From Alphaproteobacteria bacterium (GTDB lineage: Bacteria; Pseudomonadota; Alphaproteobacteria; Micropepsales; Micropepsaceae), in contig WGNU01000006.1 in assembly GCA_016124385.1 (NCBI GenBank), positions 248,001-312,000 of the forward strand: a stretch of 64,000 nt of DNA, in the 5' to 3' direction. This document shows positions 6,856 through 23,787 of this stretch, in pieces (position 1 is the stretch's first letter; every line of letters begins with the position of its first letter). The notes beneath the pieces are model-generated. The model worked only from the letters and a program-made list of their open reading frames with translations, ran no database searches and had not been told where the DNA came from. Made by a program: the position numbers and the translations under genes.

Positions 6856-8775
6856 ATGGCCGACAGCGTCGTCAAATTGACCACTCCCCCTCAAGCCACG
6901 CAGCATGTTCCCGGCATGAAAGATTTGCTCCGTATCGTGATCGTCGGCCATGTGGACCATGGCAAGTCGACCTTGGTCGGCCGCCTCGTGTACGAGACGG
7001 ACTCGCTGCCAGAGGGCAAGTTCGAGCAAATCAAGGCGATGTCCGACCGGCGTGGCATGCCGTTCGAATGGGCGTTTCTGATGGACGCGATGCAGGCCGA
7101 GCGCGATCAGGGCATCACGATCGATACCGCGCAGATCTGGCTGAAGACCAAGGGCCGTGACACCGTCATCATCGATGCGCCGGGGCACAAGGAGTTCCTC
7201 AAAAACATGGTGACGGGCGCAAGCCAGGCCGATGCCGCGCTCCTGGTCATCGACGCGGACGAGGGCGTGAAAGAGCAGTCGCGCCGGCACGGCTATCTGC
7301 TTCACCTGCTCGGCGTGCGGCAGGTGGCCGTCGTCGTCAACAAGATGGACCTCGTCAAATACGACGCCGCACGCTTCCAGGAAGTCGAGCGCGAGATCCG
7401 CACCTATCTGGGCTCGATTGGCGTTACGCCCGCGCACGTGATCCCGGTCTCGGCGCGCGACGGCGATTGCATCAAAGAGGGTTCGGCGAAAATGCCCTGG
7501 TACAAGGGCCCGAGCGTCGTTCAGACGCTCTCGCTCTTCAACCCGATCGCCTCGCTCAGCGATCTGCCGCTGCGCTTTCCGGTGCAGGATGTCTACAAAT
7601 TCGATGAGCGGCGCATCATCGCGGGCCGGATCGAGTGTGGCCGGCTGTCGGTCGGCGATACACTCATCTTCTCGCCCTCCAATAAGTCGGCGAAGATCAA
7701 GTCGATCGAGTCCTGGAGTTCGAAGCCCGGCCATCACAACCCGCTGACCGCCGTCGCGGGACAGTCGGTCGGCATCACCCTCGACGAGCAGATCTTTGTC
7801 GAGCGGGGCGACATCGTCTCTCATTTGCAGCACGCGCCCGTCGAGACGGACGTTTTCCGCGCTCGCATCTTCTGGCTGGGCCGCGAGCCCTTGAAGAAGG
7901 GCGGCGCCTACAAGATGAAGCTCGGCACGATGGAAGCGCCCATCCGCATCCAGGAGATCGAGCGGATCATCGACACGGGCGATCTGCGCGCGCTCAGCTC
8001 CGATGAAGTCGAGCGCAATCAGGTCGCGGAGATCGTCATCCGGTCGCGGCGCATGCTTGCGCTCGATGCCTTCAATGACAGTCCGCGTACCGGACGCTTC
8101 GTGATCGTCGACAAGTTCGACATCGCGGGCGGCGGCATCATCTCGATGGAAGGCTATGCGGACCAGCGAGAGCTGATTACGCAGCGCTCGACCAACATCA
8201 CGCGCGTTGAGCATGCCATCCCGCCCGAGGAGCGCTGGCGGCGCAACGGCCACAAGGGCGGCGTCATGTGGATGACGGGGCTTTCGGGCGCCGGCAAATC
8301 GACGATCGCGGTGAAACTGGAACAGCGGCTCTTCGAGAAGGGCTATCACGTCTACATTCTGGACGGCGACAATGTGCGCCACGGCCTCAACGCCAATCTC
8401 GGCTTCTCGCCGGAAGATCGCGCGGAGAACATCCGCCGGGTGGGCGAGGTCGCGGCTCTCTTCGCGCGCTCGGGCATGATCGTGATCACTTCGTTCATCT
8501 CGCCCTATCGCTCGGACCGTGACCGCGCGCGTGCGGCGGCGTCGGACGTCTTCCACGAAGTCTATGTGGCGGCGGAACTTGCGACCTGCGAAAGCCGCGA
8601 CCCGAAGGGCCTCTACAAGAAGGCGCGCGCGGGACAGATCGCCGATTTCACCGGAATCTCGGCACCCTATGAGGCGCCCGAGGAGCCCGAAGTGGTCGTC
8701 GACACAGCCGCCGCCTCGGCGGATGAATGCGTAGATGCGCTCGTAGAATACGTCGAGCGTACGTTCCGCATCTAG
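6856..8775 (+). CDS. cysNC: Bifunctional sulfate adenylyltransferase subunit 1 / adenylylsulfate kinase
   Basis: GTPase motifs GHVDHGKSTL, DAPGHKEF, NKMD; C-terminal APS kinase WMTGLSGAGKSTIA, LDGDNVRHGLN. Confidence 0.96.
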   Translation: MADSVVKLTTPPQATQHVPGMKDLLRIVIVGHVDHGKSTLVGRLVYETDSLPEGKFEQIKAMSDRRGMPFEWAFLMDAMQAERDQGITIDTAQIWLKTKGRDTVIIDAPGHKEFLKNMVTGASQADAALLVIDADEGVKEQSRRHGYLLHLLGVRQVAVVVNKMDLVKYDAARFQEVEREIRTYLGSIGVTPAHVIPVSARDGDCIKEGSAKMPWYKGPSVVQTLSLFNPIASLSDLPLRFPVQDVYKFDERRIIAGRIECGRLSVGDTLIFSPSNKSAKIKSIESWSSKPGHHNPLTAVAGQSVGITLDEQIFVERGDIVSHLQHAPVETDVFRARIFWLGREPLKKGGAYKMKLGTMEAPIRIQEIERIIDTGDLRALSSDEVERNQVAEIVIRSRRMLALDAFNDSPRTGRFVIVDKFDIAGGGIISMEGYADQRELITQRSTNITRVEHAIPPEERWRRNGHKGGVMWMTGLSGAGKSTIAVKLEQRLFEKGYHVYILDGDNVRHGLNANLGFSPEDRAENIRRVGEVAALFARSGMIVITSFISPYRSDRDRARAAASDVFHEVYVAAELATCESRDPKGLYKKARAGQIADFTGISAPYEAPEEPEVVVDTAAASADECVDALVEYVERTFRI

Positions 8776-9647: not shown

Positions 9648-10613
9648 CTAGCGATCGACGACGACGCCTTCCTTCAGGAGCGCGTCGAAATAGGCGATGG
9701 TCTTGGCGAGCCCATCGCGGAGCTTCACCTTCGGCTCCCAGCCGAGATCGGCCTTGGCGCGGGTGATGTTGGGCTGGCGCTGCTTGGGATCATCAGCCGG
9801 CAGCGGCATGAAGGTGAGCTTCGAGCGCGAGCCGGTGAGCTCCAGCACTTCGTTCGCAAGCTCGCGCATCGTGAATTCGCCGGGGTTGCCCAGATTGATC
9901 GGGCCGACGATGTCATCGCCTGAGTCCATCAGGCGGATGAGGCCGTCGACGAGGTCCTCGACGTAACAGAAGGCGCGGGTCTGGTTGCCCTCGCCGTAGA
10001 TCGTGATCGGCTCGCCGCGGAGCGCCTGGACGATGAAGTTGGACACCACGCGCCCATCGTTGGGGTGCATGCGGGGGCCATAGGTATTGAAGATGCGCGC
10101 AACTTTGATGCGCAGTCCGTGCTGGCGGTAATAGTCAAAGAACAGGGTCTCAGCGCAGCGCTTGCCCTCATCGTAGCAGGCGCGGGTGCCGATCGGGTTG
10201 ACGTTGCCCCAGTAATCCTCCGTCTGCGGATGGATCGTGGGATCGCCGTAAACCTCACTCGTCGAGGCCTGGAGGATCTTCGCGCGCAGCCGCTTGGCGA
10301 GACCTAGCATGTTGATCGCGCCGTGGACGCTCGTCTTTGTGGTCTGCACGGGATCGCGCTGATAATGGATCGGCGAGGCCGGGCAGGCCATGTTGTAAAT
10401 CTCGTCGCACTCCACATAGAGCGGGAAGGTCACATCGTGACGCATCAGCTCAAAATGCTTGGTGCCGATTAGATGGGCGATGTTGCGTTTAGCGCCGGTG
10501 AAAAAATTGTCGATGCACAGCACGTCATGTCCGCGCGCGAGCAGCTTCTCGCACAGATAAGAGCCGATGAAGCCGGCGCCGCCGGTAATGAGAGTGCGTT
10601 GCTCGAGATGCAT
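9648..10613 (-). CDS. uxs: UDP-glucuronate decarboxylase family SDR (UDP-xylose synthase-like)
   Basis: [75 protein letters not shown]. Confidence 0.92.
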
Positions 10614-11938
10614 TAAGCAGGTTCCGGCGTTACGGTCGGGCGCCCGACACTGATGTAAGTGAAGCCTGAGGCCGCCATATCGGCCGGCCGATAGATATTG
10701 CGCAGATCAACCATCAACGCCGTCTTAAGAAGGCCCTTCACGCGCTCCAGATCGAGGGCACGGAACTCGTTCCATTCGGTGAGGATGACGACACCGTCGG
10801 CGCCCTTCATCGCGTCATATTCATCGGCCGCGAAATGCGTGTCCTTGAGGAGGTTCTTGGCTTCCCCCATGCCTTCGGGATCGAAGGCGCGAACCGTCGC
10901 CCCCGCCTCGCGCAGGAGGGGCACGATATCGAGGCTCGGCGCGTCGCGCATGTCATCCGTATTGGGCTTGAAGGTGAGGCCGAGGACCGCGAGCGTCTTG
11001 CCCGCGACGCCGCCCGGGAAGGCCTCGATAATCTTGGCCGCCATGCGCCGCTTGCGCGCATCATTCACTTCGACCACGGCCTCGACGATTTTCGTCGGCG
11101 CCTCGAATTGCTGGGCCGTCCGCACGAGGGCGATCGTGTCCTTTGGGAAGCAGGAGCCGCCGTAGCCCGGACCCGCGTTCAAGAATTTGCGGCCGATCCG
11201 GCCATCCAGACCGATGCCACGCGCGACGTCCTGCACGTCCGCGCCCACCTTTTCGCAGAGATCGGCCATCTCGTTGATGAAGGTGATTTTGGTCGCAAGG
11301 AAAGCGTTCGCCGCGTATTTGATGATTTCGGCCGTCTCGCGGGCCGTGAAAATCATCGGCGTCTCGATGAGATAGAGCGGGCGATAGAGCTCACGCATCA
11401 CGCCGCGCGCGCGCTCACTCTCGGCACCAACCACCACGCGGTCCGGGCGCTTGAAATCTTCAATCGCGGAGCCCTCGCGGAGGAACTCCGGGTTCGAGGC
11501 GACATCGAATGCGGCGTCCGGGCGGACTTTGCGAACGATCTCCTCAACCTTGCGGCCCGTGCCGACCGGCACCGTCGATTTCGTCACGATGACGACGTAG
11601 TCCTTGATCTCGCGGGCGATCTCCTCGGCGGCCGCGTAGACGTAGGTCAGGTCCGCGAAACCGTCGCCGCGGCGGCTCGGCGTTCCCACCGCAATGAAGA
11701 CCGCATCGGCATCGGTCATCGCGTCCTTCAGGTCGGTCGTGAAGGAGAGGCGGCCGCCCTCGACATTGTCGCGGACGATGGCATCGAGCCCGGGCTCGTA
11801 AATGGGAATCCGGCCCGCTCGGAGTGCGTCAATTTTGGACACATCCTTATCGACGCAGACCACCTGGTGTCCAAATTCGGAAAAGCAGGCGCCCGAAACC
11901 AGGCCCACATAGCCCGTTCCAATCATCGCGACGCGCAT
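10613..11938 (-). CDS. ugd: UDP-glucose 6-dehydrogenase
   Basis: [59 protein letters not shown]. Confidence 0.97.
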
Positions 11939-12022
11939 GTCTCGATTACTCCCCTAAGGCCGGGCACGCCCTGCGCGTCCAGCACCGCAAACTCCATGCC
12001 GTGATCTGCCTCGCTTGGCCGA

Positions 12023-12892
12023 TCAGAGCTTGATTGCCTTCAGAATCTCGCGGACCTTCGGTCCCAGATCCGGGCGCGCCAAAGCGATCTCGATCGTCGC
12101 CTGAAGAAATCCGGCTTTGTCCCCGCAATCATAGGACATTCCCTTGAACCGCAACCCGTGAAAGGGAACCTTCCCGATAAGGCGTGCCATGGCGTCGGTC
12201 AGCTGAATCTCGCCGCCCGCGCCCCGTTCGTGGCGCTCCAGCTCGGAGAAGATCTGCGGCATCAGAATGTAGCGGCCCAGAATGGAGAGCGTCGAGGGCG
12301 CCTCTTCCGGGCGCGGCTTCTCGACAAGGCCGGTTACTTCGACGAGGGATCCATTGTCCTTTCCGATCGAGAGAATGCCGTAGCGCGAGGTATGCTCGCG
12401 CGGCACTTCACGTACCGCGACAATATTACCGCCTGTCTCTTTGTATGCATTGACCATTTGGGAGAGGCAGCCTGGCTCGGCCGCGACCAAGTCGTCCGGC
12501 AGCATGACGGCAAACGGCTCATCGCCGACGAAATGGCGTGCGCACCAGACCGCATGGCCCAGGCCCAGCGGCTTTTGCTGGCGGGTAAAGCTGACGGAGC
12601 CGGTCACGGGCAGCGTTTCGGAGAGGCTGTCGAGCTCCTTCACCTTGTCGCGCTGGGTGAGCAGCGATTCGAGTTCATAAGCGTGGTCGAAATGATCCTC
12701 GATGACGTGCTTGCCGCGGCCGGTCACGAAAATGAATTGCTCGATGCCGGCCTCGCGTGCCTCATCGACGGCGTATTGGATCAAGGGCTTGTCGACGACC
12801 GGGAGCATTTCCTTCGGGACAGCCTTGGTCGCGGGCAGGAACCGCGTTCCCATCCCGGCAACAGGGAAAACGACCTTCCGAATAGGGCGCAT
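12023..12892 (-). CDS. galU: UTP-glucose-1-phosphate uridylyltransferase
   Basis: MRPIRKVVFPVAGMGTRFLPATKAVPKEMLPVVDKPLIQYAVDEA; internal ATG at 12892 preferred over the ORF start at 13060. Confidence 0.96.
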   Translation of the reverse strand: MRPIRKVVFPVAGMGTRFLPATKAVPKEMLPVVDKPLIQYAVDEAREAGIEQFIFVTGRGKHVIEDHFDHAYELESLLTQRDKVKELDSLSETLPVTGSVSFTRQQKPLGLGHAVWCARHFVGDEPFAVMLPDDLVAAEPGCLSQMVNAYKETGGNIVAVREVPREHTSRYGILSIGKDNGSLVEVTGLVEKPRPEEAPSTLSILGRYILMPQIFSELERHERGAGGEIQLTDAMARLIGKVPFHGLRFKGMSYDCGDKAGFLQATIEIALARPDLGPKVREILKAIKL

Positions 12893-13068
12893 TGGGCTGG
12901 GAGTACTCCTTAACCTGAGGAACCGATCGCCGCTCCCCCTGCGAGGCGCAAGTCTTGTGCCACAGGCAGTCAAACCGCCGCAACGCCGTTCTGCTGCATT
13001 GCGAACGAAGTCAGGTCCCCCTATAAGGCTCGGCTCGTCATTGAACCGTCTCCGGCCCAAAACGCCCC

Positions 13069-14118
13069 ATGGCTCGTACCGCGCTTATCACCGGGATTAC
13101 CGGGCAGGACGGGTTTTCGCTCGCGCGGCATCTGCTTTCCCTCGGATATCAGGTCCATGGCGTAAAGCGCCGGACCTCCTCGCTGGACGCCGACAGGCTC
13201 CGTCGTCTTGAGGCCGAAGCGGGGCGGAGCGGCTCGAATCAATTGGCGCTGCATCACGGCGACATGACGGACGCCCCGAGCCTCATTCGCATCCTTCAAG
13301 ACGTGCGCCCGGCAGAGGTCTACAATCTCGCCGCGCAGAGCCACGTTCAGGTGAGCTTCGAGAAGCCGGTCTATACGGCACAGGTAAACGCACTGGGCAC
13401 GCTCAATCTGCTGGAAGCGCTGCGGCTCACCGGCATGATCGGCGACGTGCGGTTCTATCAGGCCTCGACCTCGGAAATGTTCGGAATCGCCGAGACCTCG
13501 CCGCAGAGCGAGACGACGCCCTTTCGCCCGCGCAGTCCTTACGCGGCTTCCAAGGTCTTCGCCCATCACGCGACGGTCAATTATCGCGAGGCATTCGGCC
13601 TGCACGGTTCGAGTGGCATCTGCTTCAACCACGAGGGCCCGGAGCGGGGCGAGCACTTCGTCAGCCGCAAGATCACACGCGCGGTCGCCGCGATCATCGA
13701 CGGGCGCCAGACAAGCGTCGCGCTCGGCAATCTCGATGCGCGGCGCGATTGGGGACACGTCCAAGACTATATCGAGGGCATGCACGCGATGCTGCGCCAG
13801 GAAGACGCGGACGACTATGTGCTCGCGACCGGCAAGAGCTATTCCGTCCGCGATTTCGCAACGCTTGCCTTCGCGTTCGCGGATATCGAACTCGCGTTCG
13901 AGGGGGAGGGGCTGTCCGAGGTGGCACGCGACGTCCGCACGGGCGAGGTGCGAATCAGCGTCGATCCCGCGTTCTTCCGTCCCTCGGAGGTCGATGCGCT
14001 GATCGGGGATGCCACGAAGGCACATGAGCGGCTAGGCTGGAGCGCGCGGATCGGATTCGAGGCGCTTGTCGAGGAAATGGTCCGCAGCGATATTGCCCGG
14101 CTTGCCAAGGGGAGTTAG
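13069..14118 (+). CDS. gmd: GDP-mannose 4,6-dehydratase
   Basis: ALITGITGQDGFSLARHLLSLGYQVHGVKRRTSS; AAQSHVQVSFEKPVYTAQVNALGTLNLLEA; SPYAASKVFAHHATVNYREAFG. Confidence 0.92.
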   Translation: MARTALITGITGQDGFSLARHLLSLGYQVHGVKRRTSSLDADRLRRLEAEAGRSGSNQLALHHGDMTDAPSLIRILQDVRPAEVYNLAAQSHVQVSFEKPVYTAQVNALGTLNLLEALRLTGMIGDVRFYQASTSEMFGIAETSPQSETTPFRPRSPYAASKVFAHHATVNYREAFGLHGSSGICFNHEGPERGEHFVSRKITRAVAAIIDGRQTSVALGNLDARRDWGHVQDYIEGMHAMLRQEDADDYVLATGKSYSVRDFATLAFAFADIELAFEGEGLSEVARDVRTGEVRISVDPAFFRPSEVDALIGDATKAHERLGWSARIGFEALVEEMVRSDIARLAKGS

Positions 14119-15575: not shown

Positions 15576-17045
15576 ATGATCGGCATCCAATCCTACGGTG
15601 GCTACATTCCGCGGCTCCGCCTGCAACGAAAGGCGATCGCGGCGGCGAACGCCTGGTTCGCACCCGGCCAAGCGGCGCAGGCGAAGGGGGAGCGCGCCAT
15701 CGCCAATTGGGATGAGGACGCCGTCACGATGGCGGTCGAAGCCGGCCGCGACGCGCTGCCTGGCACGGATCCCATGAAGGACCGTGCCCACATCGATGCC
15801 ATCTATTTCGCCTCGACGACGATGCCGTTCGCCGACCGGCAGAACGCGGGGATCGTCGCGAGCGCGCTCTCGCTGTCGGAGGAAATTCCCTCGATCGACA
15901 TCACTTCCTCGCAACGCGCGGGAACCTCGTCGCTCATCGCGGCGCTCAATGCGGTGGGCGCGGGCACGCAGAACCACGCACTCATCCTCGCGAGCGACAA
16001 GCGCCGCACGCGCGCGGCCTCGACGCAGGAGATGCAGTTCGGCGATGGCGCGGCCGCGCTCGTTGTCGGCAAGGACAAGCTCATCGCCAAGCTCCTGGGT
16101 TCGCACTCGCTCACGGTCGATTTCGTCGATCATTTCCGGGGCGAAGCCGAAGAATACGACTACCAATGGGAAGAGCGCTGGATCCGCGACGAGGGCATCT
16201 CGAAGATCGCGCCGCGCGCCATCAAGGGAGCGCTGGAAAAAGCTGGGGTCGCGGCAAGCGCGATCGACCACTTCGTCATGCCGTGCGTGTTCGCCAAGCT
16301 CGACGGGCAGGTCGCCAAATCCTGCGGCGTCGATCCGGCGAAGGTCCGCCCCAATCTCGGCGATTTGTGCGGCGAGACGGGCGCGGCGCACGCGCTCGTC
16401 ATGCTCGTCCACGCCCTCGAGGAAGCCAAGCCAGGTGAGAAGATCCTCGTCGTCTCATTCGGCCAGGGGTGCGACGCGATCGTTTTTGAGACCACGTCCG
16501 CGCTCCACGAACTCCAGGGCCGGCGCCGCGGCATCACGGGCTCGCTTAAGGCGCGCAAGGAAGAGACGAACTACATGAAGTGGCTCGCCTTCAACGGCCA
16601 GATCGACCTTGAGAAGGGCATGCGCGCCGAGCAAGACAAGAAGAACGCGATGACGACGACCTATCGCAAGCGCGACATGCTGTTCGGGCTGGTCGGCGGG
16701 CGCTGCACGAAGTGCGGCACCGCGCAGTTCCCGCGCACGCGGATCTGCGTCAATCCGAACTGCAAGGCGGTCGACAGCCAAGAGCCGTTCTCCTACGCGG
16801 AACTGCCGGGCAAGATCCTTTCCTGGTCGGCGGACTTCCTCACCTATTCGATGGACCCGCCGCAGCATTACGGCATGGTGACGTTCGACGAAGGCGGGCG
16901 GTTCCTCGCCGATTTCACTGACGTCGATCGCGGCACGTTCGATTCGGGAACGCCGGTGCGGATGGTCTTCCGCATCAAGGATTTCGACGACCGGCGCGGC
17001 TTCCGTCGCTATTTCTGGAAGGCCATTCCGGTGGCCGCAGGTTAG
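15576..17045 (+). CDS. HMG-CoA-synthase-like (thiolase-fold) domain fused to a zinc-ribbon/OB-fold (DUF35) domain
   Basis: MIGIQSYGGYIPRLRLQR... N-terminal HMGS/KAS III-like domain; C-terminal GGRCTKCGTAQFPRTRICVNPNC zinc ribbon then OB fold GKILSWSADFLTYSMDPPQHYGMVTFDEGGRF. Confidence 0.88.
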   Translation: MIGIQSYGGYIPRLRLQRKAIAAANAWFAPGQAAQAKGERAIANWDEDAVTMAVEAGRDALPGTDPMKDRAHIDAIYFASTTMPFADRQNAGIVASALSLSEEIPSIDITSSQRAGTSSLIAALNAVGAGTQNHALILASDKRRTRAASTQEMQFGDGAAALVVGKDKLIAKLLGSHSLTVDFVDHFRGEAEEYDYQWEERWIRDEGISKIAPRAIKGALEKAGVAASAIDHFVMPCVFAKLDGQVAKSCGVDPAKVRPNLGDLCGETGAAHALVMLVHALEEAKPGEKILVVSFGQGCDAIVFETTSALHELQGRRRGITGSLKARKEETNYMKWLAFNGQIDLEKGMRAEQDKKNAMTTTYRKRDMLFGLVGGRCTKCGTAQFPRTRICVNPNCKAVDSQEPFSYAELPGKILSWSADFLTYSMDPPQHYGMVTFDEGGRFLADFTDVDRGTFDSGTPVRMVFRIKDFDDRRGFRRYFWKAIPVAAG

Positions 17046-17124: not shown

Positions 17125-17901
17125 ATGGATTTCATCTACGACGTCAACGGCGCCGTTGCGACGCCGACCGCCCATGCGTCCGGACCGTGGGACCCCACGA
17201 TGCAGCACGGCTCGCCGCCTTCCGCGCTGATCGTGCGAGCGGCCGAGGCGCTTCCCGCCAAGGCGCCGATGCGCATCGCGCGGGTGACGGTCGATCTCCT
17301 GCGGCCTGTGCCGCTCTCGCCGCTGACGATCGTTCCCGAGATCGTCCGCGAGGGCCGCAAGATCCAAGTGATCGCTGTTTCGCTGCGGGCCGGCGAGACC
17401 GAAGTGGTGCGGGGGAGCGTGCTACGCGTGCGGCGCGAGGCGGTCGCTCTCCCTGCCGAGGCGACGGCGCCCGCTATGACGTTGCCCCTGCCCGAGGACG
17501 GCCTCGACCGGCACATCGGCGGGAGACGGCGCGGCGGATTCGCGAGCGGGCTTGAGATGCGCGTCGTGCGCGGGGCGTTCGACGAGCCGGGGCCGGCGGC
17601 CGTCTGGTATCACTTCAAGCGCCCGTTCGTGCGCGGCGAGATCGCGAGCCCGGCCATGCTCGCAATGGCGACGGGGGATTTCTGCAACGGTTCATCGAGC
17701 GCGGTGCCTTTCGAGGAGTACACCTTCATCAATGCGGATCTGAGCGTCAGCCTCACGCGCGAGCCAGTCGGCGATTGGATCCTGCTCGATTCGGAAAGCT
17801 GGTACGGCGATGAGGGCCGCGCGATCGCCTTCGCGGGTCTTGCCGACGCCCGAGGCTATTTCGGCCGCGCGATCCAGAGCATCATTCTCGAGAAGCGCTA
17901 G
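17125..17901 (+). CDS. Acyl-CoA thioesterase-like protein (TesB/thioesterase family)
   Basis: MQHGSPPSALIVRAAEALPAKAPMRIARVTVDLLRPVPLSPLTIVPEIVREGRKIQVIAVSL, double-hotdog thioesterase signature. Confidence 0.85.
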   Translation: MDFIYDVNGAVATPTAHASGPWDPTMQHGSPPSALIVRAAEALPAKAPMRIARVTVDLLRPVPLSPLTIVPEIVREGRKIQVIAVSLRAGETEVVRGSVLRVRREAVALPAEATAPAMTLPLPEDGLDRHIGGRRRGGFASGLEMRVVRGAFDEPGPAAVWYHFKRPFVRGEIASPAMLAMATGDFCNGSSSAVPFEEYTFINADLSVSLTREPVGDWILLDSESWYGDEGRAIAFAGLADARGYFGRAIQSIILEKR

Positions 17902-18314
17902 GGCGCGCGGCGGGCACGGAACGGGTTCGTCACCAAGACGCCGAAGGGGAGGAACTCCTTCGTGCTGCGGGTCGCGACCGTCAGGCCGTGCTGAAGTGCC
18001 GTCGCGGCGATGAGCGCGTTGTTCGCCTCATGCGGCTGGCGCGCGTGCATGAGGCGCGCCCAGAGGCGATAGATCTCCGGCGTCGCGGGCAGCACGGGAT
18101 AGTCGCCGCGCATGTCGTCGAGCCAGTCGTTGAGCTCGGCGGCCTTTTGCGGATCGCTCTCGCGGGTGCGCTCGATGCCGATTGCGATCTCACCGATCGC
18201 GATCGCGGGAAGGGCGATCTCCTGCGGGTCGAGGTCGCTCAGCCAGGCGATGACGCTGGCGCTCGGGCGGCGCTTGCGAAGTTCGGCGATCACGTCCGTG
18301 TCGAGCAAATACAT
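17898..18314 (-). CDS. PIN-domain toxin (VapC/FitB-like)
   Basis: MYLLDTDVIAELRKRRPS..., acidic PIN residues; NNALIAATALQHGLTVATRSTKEF; directly follows the Phd-like antitoxin. Confidence 0.9.
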   Translation of the reverse strand: MYLLDTDVIAELRKRRPSASVIAWLSDLDPQEIALPAIAIGEIAIGIERTRESDPQKAAELNDWLDDMRGDYPVLPATPEIYRLWARLMHARQPHEANNALIAATALQHGLTVATRSTKEFLPFGVLVTNPFRARRAP

Positions 18315-18319
18315 CGGCG

Positions 18320-18601
18320 CTAGAACCGCGGAATGCGGCGGGGACGAAACGCGCCCCGATCCGCGACCGGGAGATCATCGATCCGCGCCTCGGGCGCGAG
18401 CAGCCATTCCTTGACCGTGCGGTATTTGGGCGCCTCGGCGCGCAGCCATTGATCGGCCGACACCACGACGACGGCCGGCTCGCCGCGCCGCGTCACCAAT
18501 TGGGGACCGTGGCGTTCCGCTTCTGTTACGAGCTCGCTAAAGCGCGCCTTGGCGTCCTGGACCGGCCATTCGCGCAAGGAAATTATTGGCTTTTTCGGCA
18601 T
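18320..18601 (-). CDS. Phd/YefM-family antitoxin
   Basis: WPVQDAKARFSELVTEAERHGPQLVTRRGEPAVVVVSADQW is the Phd/YefM signature. Confidence 0.92.
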   Translation of the reverse strand: MPKKPIISLREWPVQDAKARFSELVTEAERHGPQLVTRRGEPAVVVVSADQWLRAEAPKYRTVKEWLLAPEARIDDLPVADRGAFRPRRIPRF

Positions 18602-18727: not shown

Positions 18728-19930
18728 ATGCCCAAGGGCATTCGGGACAAAGTTGCCATTCTCGGCATGGGCTGCTCGAAATTCGGCGAGCGCTGGGACG
18801 CCGGCGGCGAAGAACTGATGGTCGAGGCCTATCTCGAAGCCATGCAGGACGCGGGCATCGAGGAAACGCAGCTCGACGCGGCCTGGTTCTCCCACCACAT
18901 CGATGAGATCGGCGTCGGCAAGGGCGGCACGCCGCTCGCGGTTGCGCTGCGCCTCCCGAACATCTCGGTCACGCGCGTTGAGAATTTCTGCGCGAGCGGA
19001 TCGGAAGCCTTCCGCGGCGCCGTCTACGCCGTCGCGGCGGGCGCGGCGGATATCGCGCTCGCGGTCGGCTGCGAGAAGCTGAAAGACACGGGCTATGGCG
19101 GCCTTCCGACCGGCCAGGCCGGCACGCTGACGCCGCAATGGGGCGCGAACATGTCGGCGCCGGGCAGCTTTGCCCAGCTCGCGTCCGCCTATCGCACGAA
19201 GCACGGCGTCTCGAAGGAGGACCTCAAGCGCGCGATCGCGCATGTCTCGGTCAAAAGCCACCAGAACGGCACGAAGAACCCCAAGGCGCATCTCCAGAAA
19301 GCGATCACCGAGGAAATGTGCCTCAACGCGCCGATGATCGCCGAGCCGCTCGGGCTCTTCGATTGCTGCGGCGTCTCGGACGGCGCGGCGGCGGCGATCG
19401 TGACGACCCCCGAAATCGCCAAGGCGCTCGGCAAGAAGGACCTCGTCACGGTCAAGGCCATGCAGCTCTCCGTCTCGAACGGGCTTGAGAGCGCGCATAA
19501 TTCCTGGGACGGGTCTTACTTCCACACCGCGCGCATCGCCTCGAAGAAGGCGTATGAGGAAGCGGGCATCCGCGATCCGCGCAATCAGATCTCGATGATG
19601 GAGGTGCATGATTGCTTCTCGATCACCGAGCTGGTGACGATGGAAGACCTCCACATCTCGCGCGAGGGCGAGGGCTGGAAGGACGTCCTCAACGGCTTTT
19701 ACGACGCGGACGGCCAGGTGCCGTGCCAGATCGACGGCGGCTTGAAGTGCTTCGGCCATCCGATCGGCGCGTCGGGCCTGCGGATGCTCTATGAGATGTA
19801 TCTCCAACTCCAGGGCCGGGCCGGCGCGCGCCAGCTGAAGAACCCGACCTTCGGCATGACGCATAATCTGGGCGGCGCGCCGTCCATGAATGTGTGCTCG
19901 GTTGCGATCATCGGCGCGGAAGGCGCCTAA
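18728..19930 (+). CDS. Thiolase family protein (SCPx/acetyl-CoA acetyltransferase-like)
   Basis: VENFCASGSEAFRGAVYAVAAG, MEVHDCFSITE, GGLKCFGHPIGASGLRMLYE; start ATG 18728. Confidence 0.92.
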   Translation: MPKGIRDKVAILGMGCSKFGERWDAGGEELMVEAYLEAMQDAGIEETQLDAAWFSHHIDEIGVGKGGTPLAVALRLPNISVTRVENFCASGSEAFRGAVYAVAAGAADIALAVGCEKLKDTGYGGLPTGQAGTLTPQWGANMSAPGSFAQLASAYRTKHGVSKEDLKRAIAHVSVKSHQNGTKNPKAHLQKAITEEMCLNAPMIAEPLGLFDCCGVSDGAAAAIVTTPEIAKALGKKDLVTVKAMQLSVSNGLESAHNSWDGSYFHTARIASKKAYEEAGIRDPRNQISMMEVHDCFSITELVTMEDLHISREGEGWKDVLNGFYDADGQVPCQIDGGLKCFGHPIGASGLRMLYEMYLQLQGRAGARQLKNPTFGMTHNLGGAPSMNVCSVAIIGAEGA

Positions 19931-22384: not shown

Positions 22385-22756
22385 TCAGTCCTTCAGCGCG
22401 GCGCGCAGGCCCGAATAGCTCGGCTGATCGATCGCAACCTTCGCGAGCGTCGTTGCGCGGAGGTGTTCGGCAAGGCCAGGCGTTTCCAACGTCAGCGCAC
22501 CGGCACCGATCCGCTCACAGAGGAGGCGGTTCAGTTCCTCGAGCGTTCCGTCGACACCCAGAAGAGCCCGCAGCCGGGCGCGCTCGTCCTCGGTCGCGCG
22601 GGGGCCGTGTTCGAGTTCGCGAGCGACGATGCCGAGCGCGTTCGCGGCGACGCGCGCGTGAAACGCATCATGGCCTTCCAGTTTCGGCATCACGCGTTTC
22701 TCTATGAATTCGCGCACCGCCGAAACGATCTCAAGGGCCGAGGGTTGATCCATCAT
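22385..22756 (-). CDS. DUF6285-like small protein (LvaB-like candidate)
   Basis: MMDQPSALEIVSAVREFIEKRVMPKLEGHDAFHARVAANALGIVARELEHG; lies 5 bp downstream of the phosphotransferase gene; start at 22756 rather than the longer shadow ORF start. Confidence 0.82.
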   Translation of the reverse strand: MMDQPSALEIVSAVREFIEKRVMPKLEGHDAFHARVAANALGIVARELEHGPRATEDERARLRALLGVDGTLEELNRLLCERIGAGALTLETPGLAEHLRATTLAKVAIDQPSYSGLRAALKD

Positions 22757-22761
22757 CGCGG

Positions 22762-23787
22762 CTATTCCTTGCCCAGGATGAGATTGAGAAGGTCGATCTC
22801 GGTTTCCGACGACCGCCGGCCGATCGCGGCGCGCTCCACGCTGCGGTCGAACCCGGTCGCGAAGGCCTGGTACATCCCCATGCACATGATGCCCCATTTC
22901 AGCGAGCCGAGGACGATCCAGGGTCTGACGTCTTCCTCCGTGTACGCAGCACCGCCTGCATCGCGGTAGCCCGCGAGAAGATCCTTCAAATCGCCGAAGC
23001 CGCCGACGATCTTCTCCGAGACGCCGAAGCGCCAGGAATTGATGCACGGCCAGCTCAGATCCTCTAGCGGATCGCCGACATGGACGATCTCCCAGTCGAG
23101 CACCGCGCGCACGCCGTCGGGCCCGAACATCAGATTGCCGTTGCGGAAATCGCCGTGCACGAGAACGGGGTCGGAGATGTCCTTGATGCGCGGCTTCAGC
23201 CAGGTGAACGCCAGATCGAAAACGGGATGGGGATAGTCGTAGCCGCGATAGACGGCCTCATAGTGCTCGAGCTGGCCGCGCGTGACCACCGGAAGGCGCT
23301 CGCGCAGGGGGCCGAGATCGCAGCGGTGGATGCGGGCAAGGATCTCGCCGCATTGGCGCGCGAGATGGGGGCGGATGGCGTCGAATTCGGGATCGCGCAG
23401 GATCTTGCGGGCAATCGTCTCACCCTCGATCCGCGTCATGAGATAGGCCGAGCCGACGCCATCTTCCGGCGCGAAGACATAAGGGACGTCCGGCACCGGA
23501 ACGCCCGCCTGCTTGACCGCGCGGATGATCTCGGCCTCAAGGGCCAAGCCCGGCGCGTTCGAGACCGTACCGTCGCGCGGTGCGCCGCCGGGTGCCCTCC
23601 GCATGATGAGTGGCAGGCGGCCCGACGCCGTCTCAAGGTCGAAGGACCAGGTCTCCTGGCTCGCCCCACCCGACAGGCGCCTCAGGTCGAGGGGGCCGTT
23701 GGCGGCGGTCCAGTGGCGCGCAAGCGCGGCCTTCATGCTTAGTAGAAAATCCGGCTCGTCCGCCGCCATCGCGTCCATCCCTTCCAT
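22762..23787 (-). CDS. Phosphotransferase family protein (APH/ACAD10-type kinase)
   Basis: LSGGASQETWSFDLE..., VLVHGDFRNGNLMFGPDGVRAVLDWEIVHVGDPLEDLSW (APH catalytic HGDxxxxN and DWE). Confidence 0.93.
   Translation of the reverse strand: MEGMDAMAADEPDFLLSMKAALARHWTAANGPLDLRRLSGGASQETWSFDLETASGRLPLIMRRAPGGAPRDGTVSNAPGLALEAEIIRAVKQAGVPVPDVPYVFAPEDGVGSAYLMTRIEGETIARKILRDPEFDAIRPHLARQCGEILARIHRCDLGPLRERLPVVTRGQLEHYEAVYRGYDYPHPVFDLAFTWLKPRIKDISDPVLVHGDFRNGNLMFGPDGVRAVLDWEIVHVGDPLEDLSWPCINSWRFGVSEKIVGGFGDLKDLLAGYRDAGGAAYTEEDVRPWIVLGSLKWGIMCMGMYQAFATGFDRSVERAAIGRRSSETEIDLLNLILGKE

Follow-up and report, generated by a model that had tools for sequence, protein, structure and literature searches.

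What is the role of a protein which has the fold of HMG-CoA synthase (HMGS) and in which the residues used for catalysis have been replaced? The question is raised by a gene on an alphaproteobacterial contig, in a stretch of 64,000 nucleotides which was analysed as a whole (the window; Table 1). The initial annotation placed glutamine at the position of the catalytic cysteine; it suggested that the protein may not be a true HMGS and could decarboxylate, serve as a scaffold, or run a non-covalent aldol/retro-aldol step. Two features absent from that annotation, a DUF35 part fused to the HMGS-like domain and a partner thiolase, explain the protein best. It is likely that the pseudo-HMGS/DUF35 protein is a non-catalytic scaffold of a degradative beta-ketothiolase complex which it forms with the downstream thiolase.

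Table 1. Features of the pseudo-HMGS locus; positions are those of the window.
Feature	Position	Strand	Evidence
Pseudo-HMG-CoA-synthase + DUF35 fusion, 489 aa	15576..17045	+	Pfam, NCBIfam, AF2 model, Foldseek
HMGS-like (thiolase-fold) domain, residues 1-345 approx.	15576..16610	+	NF003274, phmmer to 9skh_A, 5m3k_A, 6esq_I
Thr81 at HMGS catalytic Glu position	15816..15818	+	MAFFT, family counts
Gln113 (CAA) at HMGS nucleophile Cys position	15912..15914	+	phmmer, MAFFT, family counts
Pro236 at HMGS catalytic His position	16281..16283	+	MAFFT, family counts
Zinc ribbon zf-ChsH2, residues 372-397, four Cys present	16689..16766	+	Pfam PF12172; sequence
OB-fold OB_ChsH2_C / DUF35, residues 412-466	16809..16973	+	Pfam PF01796
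Acyl-CoA thioesterase (4HBT_3), between fused-protein and thiolase genes	17125..17901	+	Pfam PF13622/PF20789
PIN-domain toxin + Phd/YefM antitoxin, between thioesterase and thiolase	17898-18601	-	
Partner thiolase, PRK06157 type, SCP2-thiolase-like, 400 aa	18728..19930	+	NF004810 707 bits (cut-off 403); PDB 7yvy, 6esq_A
Thiolase catalytic Cys88 (ENFCASG)	18989..18991	+	Conserved 157/157
HDC of thiolase HDCF motif, His294-Asp295-Cys296	19607..19615	+	HDCF His 150/151
Thiolase His344, GHP motif	19757..19759	+	Conserved 150/150
DUF6285 small protein adjoining kinase, start approximate	22385..22756	-	PF19802, 121.6 bits
APH-family kinase resembling ACAD11 kinase domain	22762..23787	-	PF01636; PDB 8v3v E=2.7e-9

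The reading frame from the ATG at 15576 contains IPSIDITSSQRAGTSSL, in which CAA encodes Gln113. When the protein is compared by phmmer with the archaeal HMGS in PDB entry 6esq_I, SSQRAGTSS falls on FACKAGTAG free of gaps, with Q opposite C; in the comparison with PhlA (5m3k_A), Gln113 lies opposite Gly. When the family is aligned by MAFFT with 6esq_I and PhlA, the result agrees, and the placing of Gln at the nucleophile position is thus confirmed. In this alignment the catalytic Glu, Cys and His of HMGS correspond to T81, Q113 and P236 of the window protein, and E267 is found at the Asn which adjoins the HMGS catalytic residues. Q113 stands directly ahead of a helix (115-129) in the AlphaFold2 model. 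C265 (NLGDLCGETG) was considered as an alternative nucleophile and rejected: the site is occupied by C, V, M or A, and the HMGS-like domain has no invariant Cys.

Among 173 distinct copies, position 113 is Gln in 132, Leu in 19, Arg in 6, Met in 5, Pro in 4, Ala, Gly and Thr in two each, and His in one. Since Cys is found in none of them, the Gln is not a chance occurrence. In copies of at least 50% identity, the Glu position is Thr and the His position is Pro, each in 139 of 140. A FastTree tree was made from 153 copies of at least 40% identity, with column 113 excluded; it holds at least 15 changes between Gln and other residues (Leu or Met), in both directions. Because Gln has been exchanged with Leu or Met so many times, position 113 reads as a lost active site and not as a catalytic Gln. 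Gln is nevertheless kept by preference, in about 76% of copies and across phyla, and so may matter in some way.

The fold itself is present. The AlphaFold2 model, for which 20 family members were used (mean pLDDT 85.6, pTM 0.88), matches 6et9_I with a Foldseek TMt of 0.87; Foldseek lists the HMGS-like subunits 9skh, 6esq, 5mg5 and 9vbt first and bacterial HMGSs next. By both phmmer and Foldseek, the nearest sequences and folds are subunits of DUF35/thiolase complexes. Pfam assigns residues 372-466 to the two components of DUF35, zf-ChsH2 and OB_ChsH2_C. Within the HMGS-like domain, the family alignment has invariant polar residues at N44-W45-D46-E47-D48, D182, D185, H186, R188, E199-E200-R201, R204 and E206; the sole invariant Cys of the whole fused protein is Cys377, in the zinc ribbon. 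In five loci from several families (L021, L032, L037, L038 and L044), the ribbon is reduced to Cys377 and the other three Cys are gone (alignment A1, columns 377-398).

The HMGS-like domain, DUF35 and an SCP2-type thiolase are encoded together, and the paired thiolases keep their catalytic residues (Table 1). Relatives of the window thiolase include 7yvy and, with E=1.8e-55, the archaeal complex thiolase 6esq_A. A homologue of the window protein (E<=1e-20) is found in 67 of 386 alphaproteobacterial genomes. The fused protein and a thiolase above the cut-off are found in the identical set of 64 of the 386, a raw count over many families in which kinship is ignored; the remaining three have a distant version of the HMGS-like protein with a different thiolase. 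By raw counts from these genomes, again over many families, the thiolase lies downstream on the same strand, 8-3420 bp away, in 68 of 70 fused copies; one exception is a fragment at a contig end, and in the other the thiolase is on a separate contig. A single-sequence scan of the genome collection, in which distant named relatives are under-sampled, gave 141 loci; among the best 80, the pair is also found in Beta- and Gammaproteobacteria, Acidobacteriota and Desulfobacteria. It is present in Rhodococcus, Streptomyces and Mycobacterium, and in haloarchaea, where the thiolase is upstream. Two haloarchaeal plasmids (L098, L103) encode a similar fused HMGS-like/zinc-ribbon protein adjoining a thiolase; its Cys position is occupied by Thr.

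The gene neighbourhoods are indicative of catabolism. In all seven Desulfobacteria loci (L205, L207, L210, L211, L214, L219, L220), a single chain of approximately 910 aa has the order pseudoHMGS-DUF35-SDR-SCP2, and the thiolase follows downstream. The SDR of this sulfate reducer fusion is 3-hydroxyacyl-CoA-dehydrogenase-like, and homologous SDR genes flank some 35 other loci. An MFE-2-type gene (hydratase2-SDR, with SCP2 where complete) lies upstream in each of the six Desulfobacteria loci which have upstream sequence. Many copies are plasmid-borne amid genes for acyl-CoA dehydrogenases, hydratases, SDRs and CoA transferases; in some, ring-hydroxylating dioxygenases are also present. The SDR-SCP2 fusion, the MFE-2 neighbour and the catabolic clusters therefore favour thiolysis of a 3-ketoacyl-CoA as the probable reaction. 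The Desulfobacteria loci lend independent support to a role in beta-oxidation.

Other activities have to be weighed against this one. A true HMGS with an unusual nucleophile would account for the match in fold and sequence family; however, Cys, Glu and His are all absent, and the scores fall below the NCBIfam equivalog cut-offs (201.6 against 244 bits for NF003274, 145.2 against 353 for TIGR00748). In addition, HMG-CoA reductase (PF00368) was not found in the genome, which is 74% complete. We give this explanation practically no weight, and the earlier doubt about HMGS activity was justified. Decarboxylation, as in KSQ domains, would have the Gln113 domain act on malonyl-type thioesters to feed the thiolase. 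In its favour, Gln takes the very place of the Cys and is more frequent there than any other residue. KSQ domains keep the active-site His, however, and here, in close copies, that position is almost always Pro; the repeated changes to Leu or Met on the tree, and R, P, A, G, T or H in farther relatives, also argue against a catalytic Gln. No carrier protein or malonyl-specific gene was seen in the annotated neighbourhoods. A decarboxylase is thus very improbable. Of the functions first proposed, the scaffold fits best and decarboxylation is not supported; the proposal as a whole is partly supported.

The former HMGS pocket may instead now serve as a new active site, such as one for a non-covalent aldol/retro-aldol step. 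The many invariant polar residues left in the domain could be read in this way, and thiolase-like aldolases with DUF35 partners are known (Sal/Shy, PMC12329534); but these use the thiolase-like and not the HMGS-like subunit, and the invariant residues could equally serve an interface or the fold. There is also no invariant Cys in the domain, and the window thiolase keeps its nucleophile, which suits thiolysis. We consider a new active site unlikely. We think it similarly unlikely that the pair is a biosynthetic condensing enzyme or C-acyltransferase of the PhlACB kind. The closest structures are indeed acyltransferases and an archaeal complex which forms acetoacetyl-CoA, but the genes annotated around the pair are those of catabolism (acyl-CoA dehydrogenases, hydratases, SDRs, CoA transferases, ring-hydroxylating dioxygenases and an estrogen-type cluster), and fusion to a 3-hydroxyacyl-CoA-dehydrogenase-like SDR also speaks against it. 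It should be noted that the thiolase could still run in the condensing direction.

If the protein is a scaffold of a degradative thiolase complex, the chemistry would be carried out by Cys88, His294 and His344 of the thiolase. The reaction would most likely be thiolytic cleavage of a 3-ketoacyl-CoA produced by R-specific beta-oxidation (MaoC and an HSD17B4-type SDR). The DUF35 part would clamp the pseudo-HMGS to the thiolase and help to hold CoA. The pseudo-HMGS would be an assembly scaffold and probably also part of the acyl-chain cavity, with Gln113 (or Leu/Met) presenting an uncharged side chain in the former nucleophile position. A more speculative extension, which we regard as possible though doubtful, is that the Gln/Leu/Met pocket is a dedicated binding or gating chamber; it would present bulky or cyclic 3-ketoacyl-CoA to the thiolase and set the substrate range of the complex, as part of a modular thiolase system for catabolism that several bacterial phyla share with haloarchaea.

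The remaining genes of the window are less clearly connected to the pair. The 4HBT_3 thioesterase is a possible helper; it is not conserved in the pair, and a homologue in the same position is found only in a locus of the same genus (L002). The thioesterase and toxin-antitoxin genes are regarded as local insertions because the thiolase is directly next in most genomes. A PIN toxin is found in the matching interval of L084 (8064-8474) and L142 (7262-7696). In about 15 alphaproteobacterial genomes the kinase gene lies close to the HMGS-like/thiolase pair; several of these conserve the entire region, recG/mfd included, and the presence of the kinase and DUF6285 genes may thus reflect passive gene order. 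In Pseudomonas putida, the kinase/small-protein pair LvaA/LvaB acts on 4-hydroxyvaleryl-CoA. An upstream pathway step for the kinase, including a route of entry for 4-hydroxy acids, is possible as a lead, and the link of the DUF6285 protein to the pair is uncertain. No MaoC or SDR gene adjoins the pair in the window; homologues are present elsewhere in the genome, where an SDR is 53% and a hydratase domain 44% identical to the parts of MFE-2. Further away, positions 6856-8775 (+) appear to encode a GTPase/kinase fusion which resembles CysN-CysC (sulfate activation), upstream of nucleotide-sugar genes (9648-14118).

Automated annotation calls such proteins HMG-CoA synthase, 3-oxoacyl-ACP synthase or OB-fold protein. 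About one in six of the alphaproteobacterial genomes sampled encode a member of the family, and members also occur in clusters for the degradation of aromatic and other compounds. If its members are dead subunits of a thiolase complex, these annotations should be corrected, and experimenters should co-express the protein with its thiolase. Since some members are naturally fused to a hydroxyacyl-CoA-dehydrogenase-like domain, the pathway step can be tested directly. In the literature, which was searched with the reach of few subscription journals, no description of the fused family as a dead subunit was found. VceA/VceB (lignin) was considered as a characterised homologue and set aside, as the literature search gave no usable link.

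The scaffold reading bears on the degradation of estrogens. In the edc cluster of Novosphingobium tardaugens, the 'HMG-CoA synthase' EGO55_13555 is flanked by a thiolase and a 3-hydroxyacyl-CoA dehydrogenase; its role was left open, and the authors suggested that it has no condensing activity (Ibero et al. 2020, PMC7793797). The operon logic is the same: thiolase, HMGS-like protein, 3-hydroxyacyl-CoA dehydrogenase and acyl-CoA dehydrogenase. EdcT was considered as a thiolase and rejected, as it is a TonB receptor. A plasmid cluster in Novosphingobium ES2-1, with a gene order matching edc, encodes a distant fused homologue (L067) which differs from the window protein in being only about 30% identical to it; in it Leu replaces the Cys, Thr replaces the Glu, and the catalytic His is also gone. 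A dead subunit is thus suggested as the answer for EGO55_13555, by way of the ES2-1 homologue rather than the N. tardaugens sequence itself.

Among other known systems, MFE-2/SCPx beta-oxidation of the peroxisomal type is resembled by the sulfate reducer operon, which has MFE-2 as well as SDR-SCP2 fused to the pseudo-HMGS. MFE-2 systems are not known to have an HMGS-like or DUF35 domain. The catabolic systems BbsAB, Ltp2-ChsH2 and Sal-Shy each pair DUF35 with a thiolase of SCP2-type fold (PMC12329534), but they are without the HMGS-like domain. All three building blocks, including a homologous thiolase, are found in the archaeal acetoacetyl-CoA thiolase/HMGS/DUF35 complex (6ESQ/6ET9); there, however, the HMGS is catalytic (Glu, Cys and His present), DUF35 is separate and the product is HMG-CoA. 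In that complex, thiolase and HMGS are described as sharing a CoA site, with DUF35 holding both together (PMC12329534).

The closest parallel to a dead HMGS-like subunit is PhlA of PhlACB, the Friedel-Crafts acyltransferase PpATase/CsATase (5M3K/5MG5/9SKH), which is without the catalytic Cys and Glu and stands beside DUF35 and a thiolase (PMC6392133, PMC12955522). PhlA has Gly115 for Cys and Cys83 for Glu; catalysis is by PhlC only, yet all three subunits must be co-expressed (PMC6392133). The DUF35 protein, PhlB, joins the PhlA and PhlC dimers; the three subunits line a cavity in which the bound product is touched by PhlC residues only (PMC6392133). In CsATase, C88S in the thiolase subunit PhlC abolished activity (PMC12955522). 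On a Priestia megaterium plasmid (L101, 3992-6770), unfused PhlA-like, thiolase and zinc-ribbon genes adjoin a non-ribosomal peptide synthetase, and Gly takes the place of the Cys; this suggests an acyltransferase for a peptide-derived product. PhlACB differs from the window pair in its separate DUF35 subunit, in having Gly rather than Gln, in its role in antibiotic synthesis and in its identity of about 26-28%. With the HMGS-like and DUF35 parts fused, the window protein and its downstream thiolase would form a two-gene version of the three-part thiolase/DUF35/HMGS complexes, such as PhlACB and the archaeal complex which forms HMG-CoA.
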